From Arcobacter defluvii (GTDB lineage Bacteria > Campylobacterota > Campylobacteria > Campylobacterales > Arcobacteraceae): a DNA stretch of 64,000 nucleotides. The notes beneath the pieces were generated by a model that was not told where the DNA came from, searched no databases, and worked only from the letters and a program-made list of their open reading frames with translations. The stretch is from NCBI RefSeq assembly GCF_013201725.1, contig NZ_CP053835.1:310001-374000 (forward strand). Direction: 5' to 3'. Below, in pieces: positions 8,328 through 44,279 of the stretch (positions are counted from its first letter, which is position 1; each line of letters starts with the position of its first letter). The position numbers were made by a program, and so were the translations under genes.

Positions 8328-8345
8328 TTTTCAATTTCTAAAAAA

Positions 8346-8377
8346 GAGTCATTTGTGAGTCATTTGTTTGTTACAAT
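8346..8377 (+). promoter_or_regulatory. Tandem GAGTCATTTGT repeat and -10 of the cas6-like gene
   Basis: Two perfect, abutting copies of GAGTCATTTGT occupy 8346-8356 and 8357-8367. Four bases later comes TACAAT (8372-8377), a good -10 element. The repeats therefore cover the -35 zone, one helical turn apart, as expected for an activator binding as a tandem dimer. A related pair lies at 43787-43808 with the same 4-base gap to its -10. Confidence 0.6.
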
Positions 8378-8415: not shown

Positions 8416-9159
8416 ATGAAAATATTTGAACTAAAATGCGAAGCATACTTAAAAAATTTTATTGAATTAAAAGAGAGCTTTGATGTATTGTCAAAATATA
8501 TAAATTTTACGATATATCAAAGTAAAAGATTAGATCTTGAGAATAAAGATAAATCAATAAATAACTATTGTTTTAGTAATTTTTATCCAACAGAAAGTGA
8601 TAGAATTTATAAAAAAGACAAAATATATAAATTTGTAATTAGAAGTATTGATAGAGAATTGATTAATGAATTAGAGATTTTACTTTGTAAAAATACAAAT
8701 AATATCTTTCTTAAAGTTTTAAATGTACAAAAAAAAGTAATTGATCAATTTTTTATTCATGAATTATATAGTGCAACACCAGTTATCGTTTCTGATAAAA
8801 GAGATGAAAAGGGAAAACAACTTTTCTGGTCTTTACATTATAATGGAGATATATTGTCTTTACAAAAAAGACTTCATAATAATTTGGAAAAAAAATTAAA
8901 ACAGTTTTATCAAGAAGATGTGAGTGAATCAACAAGTTTTATTCAAGAGATTGAATTAAAAAATCAAAAACCTCAATCTATTTATTTTAAAACTACAAAA
9001 GATAAAAAAGAGAAGATTGTAAGATTAATTGGTAATAAATTAAGAATTGTACCAAATAAAGATGTAATATCTCAAAAATTAGCTTTTTTATCTTTAGCAG
9101 TTGGTTTAGGTGAAAAAAGTAGTTTAGGTGGTGGATTTTGTTTGAGTAGAGGAATTTAA
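8416..9159 (+). CDS. Cas6-like CRISPR RNA endoribonuclease (RAMP), solitary
   Basis: Cas6 cleaves CRISPR transcripts into guide RNAs. The C-terminus carries the RAMP glycine-rich loop, GLGEKSSLGGGF, matching G-h-G-x5-G-h-G, and the middle has YCFSNFYP and YKFVIRSID, typical of the first ferredoxin-like fold. The 247-residue length fits Cas6. No histidine occurs before about residue 114, so the catalytic His usually found near residues 30-50 is absent. There is no other cas gene or CRISPR array in the window. It has its own promoter and follows the lipid operon by 88 bases. It may process an array elsewhere or have been co-opted. Confidence 0.75.
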   Translation: MKIFELKCEAYLKNFIELKESFDVLSKYINFTIYQSKRLDLENKDKSINNYCFSNFYPTESDRIYKKDKIYKFVIRSIDRELINELEILLCKNTNNIFLKVLNVQKKVIDQFFIHELYSATPVIVSDKRDEKGKQLFWSLHYNGDILSLQKRLHNNLEKKLKQFYQEDVSESTSFIQEIELKNQKPQSIYFKTTKDKKEKIVRLIGNKLRIVPNKDVISQKLAFLSLAVGLGEKSSLGGGFCLSRGI

Positions 9160-42888: not shown

Positions 42889-42911
42889 ATGAATTTAAAT
42901 AGGTGTTAATA

Positions 42912-43751
42912 ATGAAAAATCTCATAGTAAGAGTTACTTTAGTTGTATTTCTTTTTGTAATAAATGTTTTTCCAAAAGATATTAATAATATTACTAATTC
43001 ACATTGGGAAACTTTACATCTTTACCATGGGGAAAATCAAAAAGCAGGTCCTTTTGCATTTGATGATAATTATGTAGAGTTTGAATTTGGTGGAAGATAT
43101 GAATGGTTAGATTTATATGGATATATAGATTTTATAGATGCTTTAAACAGTTCAACAAGTGATAAGCATGGACAAAATAACTTCTTTGCAGATATTGAAC
43201 CAAGGATTTCAATAGACTATTTAACAAATACTGATTTATCTTATGGTGCTTTACAAGAGTTATTTATCGCTTTTGATATCTATTATGCAGATGAGCCAAA
43301 TGGAGATGGATTAAAGATAGTTTGGATGGGATTAGGAAGTGATATAGATATTCCATGGCTTGGAATTAGTGGTGTGAATTTTTATACTAGATATGTAGAA
43401 GAAAATTATGGTGCAAGTAATGAAAATAGTTTTGATGGATATGTTGCTCATATAAATTGGTTTAAACCTTTATATAATTTTACGGATTCAAGATTTTTAT
43501 CTTTTCAAGGTTATTTAGATTATGAGTTTGGAAGTGATTTAGATAATAACAGTTTTGAAAGACAATATAGAACAAGTGATTCATTACAATCTTATTTAGG
43601 ACTTTGGGTACATGATAAAAAATGGACTATTGGATATGGACTAAAAGTTTATAAAAATATGACTCAATGGAAAGATGGTGAAGTTTTAAATGGTAAAGAG
43701 ACAAAAACTTCTGGATATGCTCACTATTTTAATATAGGATATAAATTTTAA
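42912..43751 (+). CDS. Tsx-like outer membrane channel
   Basis: The ATG at 42912 is used; a GTG at 42903 is the alternative. A signal peptide (LIVRVTLVVFLFVINVFPK) is followed by a barrel-type protein rich in aromatic strands: NSHWETLHLYHGENQK and FGGRYEWLDLYGYIDF, as in Tsx nucleoside channels, and it ends YFNIGYKF with the C-terminal Phe. About 279 residues. Tsx proteins pass nucleosides through the outer membrane. No nucleoside gene is near, so the substrate is inferred only from the family. Confidence 0.85.
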   Translation: MKNLIVRVTLVVFLFVINVFPKDINNITNSHWETLHLYHGENQKAGPFAFDDNYVEFEFGGRYEWLDLYGYIDFIDALNSSTSDKHGQNNFFADIEPRISIDYLTNTDLSYGALQELFIAFDIYYADEPNGDGLKIVWMGLGSDIDIPWLGISGVNFYTRYVEENYGASNENSFDGYVAHINWFKPLYNFTDSRFLSFQGYLDYEFGSDLDNNSFERQYRTSDSLQSYLGLWVHDKKWTIGYGLKVYKNMTQWKDGEVLNGKETKTSGYAHYFNIGYKF

Positions 43752-43786
43752 TTAATTTCATAAAAATTATTTTAAAATAAAAAAAT

Positions 43787-43818
43787 GAGTCATTTATGAG
43801 TAATTCTTTGTGTATTAT
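43787..43818 (+). promoter_or_regulatory. GAGTCATTTAT/GAGTAATTCTT tandem repeat and -10
   Basis: GAGTCATTTAT (43787-43797) is followed directly by GAGTAATTCTT (43798-43808). Four bases later comes TATTAT (43813-43818), the -10 of the 143-residue membrane protein gene (ATG 43848, AAGGAG upstream). The repeat length and the gap to -10 equal those at 8346-8377 before the cas6-like gene. Confidence 0.6.
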
Positions 43819-43847
43819 TTTTCTTCATTAATACGCAAGGAGAAAAT

Positions 43848-44279
43848 ATGGCAGCAGTAGGAGCTGGATTATTTGTTTTTTTATTTATTTTTCTAGTTTG
43901 GTTAGGATTTTTATTAAGCCTTAATAAATTAGTCAATGTAATGAGAGTTGATGGTTTACCTCAAACTTTTATAAGTAAAATTTGGGTTTGGAGTCAAGTG
44001 ATTCCTTTTTGGGGCTTTATTGCTTTAATTGTATTTAATATTAAAGCAGACACTGCATCAAGAGCATTGGAATCAGAATTTAAATTACCTTTTAAAGAAA
44101 TAAAATATCCTGCAACAATTGGTTGGATAGTTATTTTAGGTTTACTTTATACATGGATTCCTATTTTAGGAGCACTAGTATTATTAGTTTGTATGATTTT
44201 ATTTTGGATTAAAGTTTCTTCAACTTCAAAACAAATAGAAGATTTAAAATTAAACACAAAGACTACAATTGAGTCTTGA
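43848..44279 (+). CDS. Small membrane protein, three to four helices
   Basis: This 143-residue protein has helices at ~4-25, ~47-65, ~90-107 and ~108-125, with a basic loop (LNKLVNVMRVDG) and a charged tail (TSKQIEDLKLN). No enzymatic motif is visible and the family is not recognised. It is a single-gene unit with the tandem-repeat promoter at 43787, shared with the cas6-like gene, and a hairpin after it. Confidence 0.7.
   Translation: MAAVGAGLFVFLFIFLVWLGFLLSLNKLVNVMRVDGLPQTFISKIWVWSQVIPFWGFIALIVFNIKADTASRALESEFKLPFKEIKYPATIGWIVILGLLYTWIPILGALVLLVCMILFWIKVSSTSKQIEDLKLNTKTTIES

Follow-up and report, generated by a model that had tools for sequence, protein, structure and literature searches.

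All known sites of OmpR/PhoB-family regulators are direct repeats, PhoP requiring 7-bp motifs separated by a 4-bp spacer (PMC4832192), and the Pho box consists of two 11-nt direct repeats with the core CTGTCAT (PMC4415409). Here we describe an element of comparable layout in Arcobacter defluvii, located in a window of 64,000 nucleotides (positions 310001-374000 of the 3.02-Mb chromosome; genome G000 below). Two tandem repeat units followed by a -10 hexamer stand at 43787-43818 of this window, in front of a gene for a 143-aa membrane protein, and the same arrangement is found at a cas6-like gene. We think it likely that a clade-specific immunity-and-surface regulon has this element as its operator-promoter and is served by a class-II, sigma-70-dependent activator that is probably a response regulator of the OmpR/PhoB type; the activator might also be something other than a response regulator. 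Little is settled on how the many defence systems of a bacterium are coordinated, and a short, recognisable operator common to CRISPR, Lamassu, DISARM-like, restriction and surface genes would make such coordination directly testable in a cultivable organism.

Like the Pho box of PhoB/PhoP, the Arcobacter element places two 11-bp direct repeats 5' of a sigma-70 -10, where they replace the -35 box, and the E. coli core CTGTCAT and GAGTCAT have GTCAT in common. It differs from the Pho box in its GAGTC core, in its upstream A-tract and in having defence and surface genes rather than phosphate genes as targets. Its second unit also stands about 2 bp closer to the -10 than at E. coli phoA, which we take as a lead only. 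The geometric fit is good, and from this comparison the view that the element works like a Pho box appears well supported. Within the same phylum, PceP of Sulfurospirillum, also of the OmpR family, binds to direct repeats that overlap with the -35 region in sigma-70 promoters, but its repeat is CTATW with a 17-bp gap and it serves one organohalide gene region (PMC7755780). The Gac/Rsm immune regulon of Pseudomonas resembles it in bringing many unrelated defence genes, active against phages and bacteria, under the joint control of a single system (PMC11888443); it acts post-transcriptionally via small RNAs, however, whereas the shared feature in Arcobacter, a member of Campylobacterota, is a promoter operator. 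Similarly, BrxR/CapW and other WYL defence regulators exert transcriptional control over anti-phage systems (PMC9122601), but they are local regulators beside a defence system, whereas the Arcobacter motif is dispersed over many systems and over the genome.

At both sites of the window the repeat period is 11 and four bases lie between the second unit and the -10 (Table 1). Read base by base, the site at 43787-43818 has the layout GAGTCATTTAT-GAGTAATTCTT-N4-TATTAT, N4 being TGTG, so that the initial annotation, which had placed a tandem operator four bases before TATTAT and had equated its period and gap with those at the cas6-like gene, was correct to the base. Alignment of 56 distinct sites gave the consensus aAAAAAGAGTCATTTgtGAGTCATTTgtttgnTAtAAT, composed of an A-tract, two 11-bp direct repeats with the core GAGTC and an extended sigma-70 -10, all at fixed spacing. 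The GAGTC cores are nearly invariant, and in all sites the repeat is head-to-tail with an 11-bp period (about 7 conserved positions plus 4 of spacer). Conservation also reaches bases that were no part of the first search patterns: A at -5 to -3 is 98-100% conserved, and the base pattern following each core and the extended -10 are conserved as well. The second GAGTCATT is separated from the -10 by 7 bp in 51/56 sites and by 8 bp in 5/56. Start codons are mostly found about 60-70 bp past the start of the operator, and we therefore take the element to be the promoter itself. From the position of the repeats, which take the place of the -35 region and border on the -10, we infer that a tandem activator dimer, most likely of the OmpR/PhoB type, would sit on the repeats along one face of the DNA and contact sigma-70 RNA polymerase; the targets would show little or no expression as long as the activator is off. 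A LexA/SOS box was rejected, since it needs an inverted-repeat operator and a direct repeat was found in all sites.

Copy numbers were judged against the reversed pattern as a control. Under a first-order Markov model, 0.0004 exact matches to the tandem motif are expected in the window and 0.017 in the 3.02-Mb genome, which holds two exact and four one-mismatch copies of the repeat and none of the reversed pattern. When the longer, composite pattern was used at up to 3 mismatches, seven copies were found in this genome (reversed control 0). In agreement with the initial annotation, no third copy lies in the window, even allowing 2 mismatches; further copies are found in the rest of the genome and in sister species. 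We sampled 31 genomes of the genus, a few of them incomplete, and 30 genomes from other genera. The composite element gave 59 matches across 12 of the 31 genus genomes, with up to 11 per genome, and was not found in the other 19, while its reversed version had no match in any of the 31. A strict form of the pattern was present in 10 of the genus genomes and in none of the 30 outside the genus. Neither chance nor a plain housekeeping promoter would readily produce so sharp a presence/absence pattern within a single genus, and on the strength of these sequence counts the layout shared by the two window genes is not due to chance. The genome-wide search and the comparison with relatives that had been proposed for the site thus returned neither a crowd of chance matches nor a lack of conservation.

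The genes behind the operator are mutually unrelated, and their distinctive share is anti-phage or anti-plasmid. Arcobacter cloacae LMG 26153 carries the operator both on its chromosome and on plasmid pACLO (189,043 bp), where the target is a NERD-helicase gene followed by csx20, cas6 and csm genes, that is, a type III-A CRISPR operon. The surrounding region of pACLO (L419, NZ_CP053834.1 61659-78402) holds divergent type I-B and type III-A CRISPR operons, the tandem operator being present only on the type III-A/NERD side. The target in G017 is LmuABC (Lamassu), followed by the RT and PRTase of DRT class III; this defence island (G017:2032001-2048000, L413) contains two variant operators (GAGTCACAAAAGAGGCATTTG) together with a WYL gene and the Lamassu and DRT class III genes. 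In G026 the operator stands before a WYL gene, behind which come DrmD- and DrmMI/IIG-like genes, a DISARM-like cluster. In G010 it stands before a WYL gene accompanied by a PDDEXK nuclease (PDC-S26); G020 shares this gene order, and the WYL target recurs in G018. Also behind the operator are type I restriction subunits (G010, G028), a type IV restriction enzyme (G010), a bSEFIR protein (G026), an OLD-like ATPase (G000), an Mrr nuclease (G029) and, together with an AAA partner, a DUF2779/Cas4-like protein (G010). SbcCD and the orphan Cas6 likewise count among the defence targets. Judged by gene content, the operon-level defence examples seem hard to explain otherwise. Counting first genes only, PADLOC matches at E<=1e-20 were obtained for 7/34 distinct first-gene families versus about 5/111 among the neighbouring genes listed (Fisher p=0.007), in a comparison where neighbours are more often core genes and where part of the matches point to generic helicases and ATPases.

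A second large group of targets consists of lipoproteins and small membrane proteins. As judged from its targets, the regulon would raise immunity to foreign DNA (restriction, CRISPR, Lamassu, DISARM-like, SEFIR and nucleases) and, alongside, would alter the surface through a TraT-like lipoprotein, polysaccharide chain length and small membrane proteins. The small stress or envelope regulon that the initial annotation had envisaged therefore holds in so far as surface genes recur as a second theme, but with up to 11 sites per genome it is less small than supposed, and anti-phage and anti-plasmid systems are its most distinctive part. In two species a small secreted protein gene and then a membrane GGDEF-EAL gene lie behind the operator (L064 and L074), and because of the GGDEF-EAL gene the regulon may be tied to cyclic di-GMP. 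The operator could also serve as a sequence-only route to new defence genes, since genes of unknown function behind it, such as that for the 143-aa membrane protein, become candidates.

Could the element simply be an ordinary sigma-70 promoter of Campylobacterota in a strong form? Such promoters lack a -35 box and have a periodic T-rich signal of about 10-11 bp 5' of the -10, so that a dedicated activator would be unneeded. Indeed, the -10 and upstream signal of the aligned sites match a gnTAnaAT -10 with a periodic T-rich upstream pattern, and the -10 and ATTTG repeats correspond to the gnTAnaAT box and periodic signal of C. jejuni sigma-70 promoters (PMC3847290). However, such a promoter would leave the near-invariance of the GAGTC cores unaccounted for, and it fits poorly with 0 matches in 19 of the 31 genus genomes against up to 11 in others, with the absence of the strict pattern from all 30 genomes outside the genus and with targets that are mostly accessory rather than housekeeping genes. 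We therefore consider this explanation unlikely.

A regulon served by a dedicated activator is further suggested by retention of the operator at the same genes in different species. It is retained 5' of the cas6-like gene in G000, G010, G014, G018 and G020, with G017 having a GAGTCTTT..GAGTCTTT form; 5' of the TraT-like lipoprotein gene in G000, G010, G017 and G029; and 5' of the Wzz polysaccharide operon in G000, G010, G014, G017 and G029. Genes for PAS proteins have it in G004, G010 and G011. The suggestion that a common activator would serve both window genes, the orphan Cas6 included, is thus supported by the promoter element that they share and by its conservation at the cas6-like gene in five sister species. 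SbcD has the operator 5' of it in five species (G000, G004, G011, G014 and G029), whereas in Arcobacter caeni and two related metagenome-assembled genomes SbcD lies directly behind the preceding gene and the operator is absent, which indicates that the operator was gained or lost there as a unit.

Newly acquired systems, one of them plasmid-borne, would enter the regulon when they bring the operator with them or come to gain it. An AT-rich IMG/VR contig (L381:10884-11563) has the operator before a SLATT effector gene, and a prophage or its host flank may for this reason use the same switch; the remaining three of four IMG/VR matches (L382-L384) lack the A-tract, L384 being GC-rich, and were taken as chance. 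One operator lies within an F-type transfer (TraC-like) gene cluster (G030:C1:50001-64000, L377), and a conjugative element may thus be another carrier. A bolder version, which we regard as conceivable rather than likely, would make a single dedicated activator a master switch of immunity that detects infection or a disturbed envelope and then switches on chromosomal, prophage and plasmid defence together with surface-exclusion genes, mobile systems carrying the operator and plugging in on arrival.

We searched for the activator with the DNA-binding domains of 28 response regulators of G020 as queries and then followed four candidates across the genus; the A. defluvii genome itself has 41 PF00486 matches. 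Several results weigh against the proposed regulon and its activator. No regulator gene tracks the motif distribution exactly in the 31 genus genomes: response regulator B, which is PhoB-like, is in 12/12 motif genomes yet is a genus core gene, D is in 12/12 as well as in three motif-free genomes, seemingly of the same clade, and C is in 10/12 motif genomes and 0/19 motif-free ones, the co-occurrence of all three with the motif being confounded by clade membership. Motif-free genomes with B or D numbered 2-3 in this search. In G000 the three candidates lie at 2812697-2813422 (C), 1792746-1793393 (D) and 1018764-1019423 (B). The enrichment for defence genes is modest, and lipoproteins and proteins of unassigned function make up many of the targets. 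Moreover, the site at 43787 is among the weaker copies, with 3 mismatches to the consensus pattern, and the gene behind it has no relative that carries the operator. As to individual candidates, B is not decisive, its recognition helix being essentially unchanged in the motif-free G002, G007 and G013, and response regulator L254 is missing from the motif-rich G018. D (L360:1747-2394 and orthologues) is OmpR-like, with a receiver domain that looks degenerate. No recognition-helix change behind the G017 GAGTCTTT variant was found in B, C or D, and degeneracy seems a better description of the variant than a switch of specificity. The tandem 11-bp repeat thus suits the OmpR-type regulator put forward in the initial annotation, although no regulator could be linked to the element.

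The activator could instead be a WYL-domain regulator of DNA damage or defence of the DriD/PafBC/BrxR kind. WYL activators of DNA-damage genes are already known, and a 308-aa HTH-WYL-WCX protein, whose gene precedes defence genes, is itself a target in G010, G018 and G020 (with a weaker operator in G026). As a universal activator, however, it was rejected, since no WYL relative was detected in the operator-bearing G014 and G028; a close orthologue is also absent from G000, G004, G011, G017 and G029, and orthologues occur in G002, G022 and G030 without the operator. We hold a WYL activator to be quite improbable. Still less can be said for the promoter of an alternative, extracytoplasmic function (ECF) sigma factor, which we judge very improbable: the -10 is a canonical extended TATAAT at the sigma-70 position and the upstream part is a tandem repeat, not a single -35 box. 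The -10 boxes of ECF sigma factors are normally unlike TATAAT, which likewise counts against it. ECF sigma factors are nonetheless present in the genus, Arcobacter butzleri having seven ECF sigma/anti-sigma pairs (PMC3445524). Least probable of all is a mobile promoter cassette copied among accessory genes without common regulation, for although the same gene has the operator in one species and lacks it in another, and plasmid and viral-contig copies exist, strong conservation is limited to the A-tract, repeats and -10, the bases conserved are the ones that a binding site would be expected to keep, and variation between copies falls mainly at spacer positions.

Within the regulon that we favour, the response would have the 143-aa membrane protein as one of its effectors. 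The weak points of its operator copy are GAGTAATT in the second unit and TATTAT as the -10, while the A-tract and spacing are retained (Table 1). No family was assigned to the protein in Pfam, NCBIfam or PADLOC, and no relatives were found among the plasmids or viral contigs searched. Its sole relative among the searched genomes, a distant one in G027, is 46% identical and lacks the operator. A single-sequence structure prediction gave a low-confidence, all-helical model (pLDDT 70, pTM 0.36). A Tsx-family channel gene (window 42903-43751) stops 36 bp 5' of the operator and is seemingly a separate transcription unit.

Table 1. Coordinates of the two operator-promoters in the window and of the genes behind them.
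Feature	Position in window	Strand	Details
A-tract, membrane-protein gene	43780..43785	+	directly 5' of the first half-site
First 11-bp repeat unit	43787..43797	+	GAGTCATTTAT
Second 11-bp repeat unit	43798..43808	+	GAGTAATTCTT, degenerate copy
-10 hexamer	43813..43818	+	TATTAT, sigma-70 type, 4 bp past the second unit
Ribosome-binding site	43837..43842	+	AAGGAG, read from the sequence
Target gene	43848..44279	+	143-aa membrane protein
A-tract, cas6-like gene	8340..8345	+	
Tandem operator	8346..8367	+	GAGTCATTTGT x2 (8346-8356 and 8357-8367), perfect repeat, followed by TTGT
-10 hexamer	8372..8377	+	TACAAT
Orphan Cas6-like endoribonuclease gene (Cas6b)	8416..9159	+	Pfam PF01881; PADLOC Cas6b E 4e-65

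The cas6-like gene of the window is a second copy, a chromosomally conserved orphan that adjoins glnD. The other cas6 of this genome belongs to a type I-B CRISPR-Cas locus, where the operator is absent, and its product is 53% identical to the window Cas6. That locus (G000:1938001-1948000, L375) looks complete and has at least 18 array repeats.
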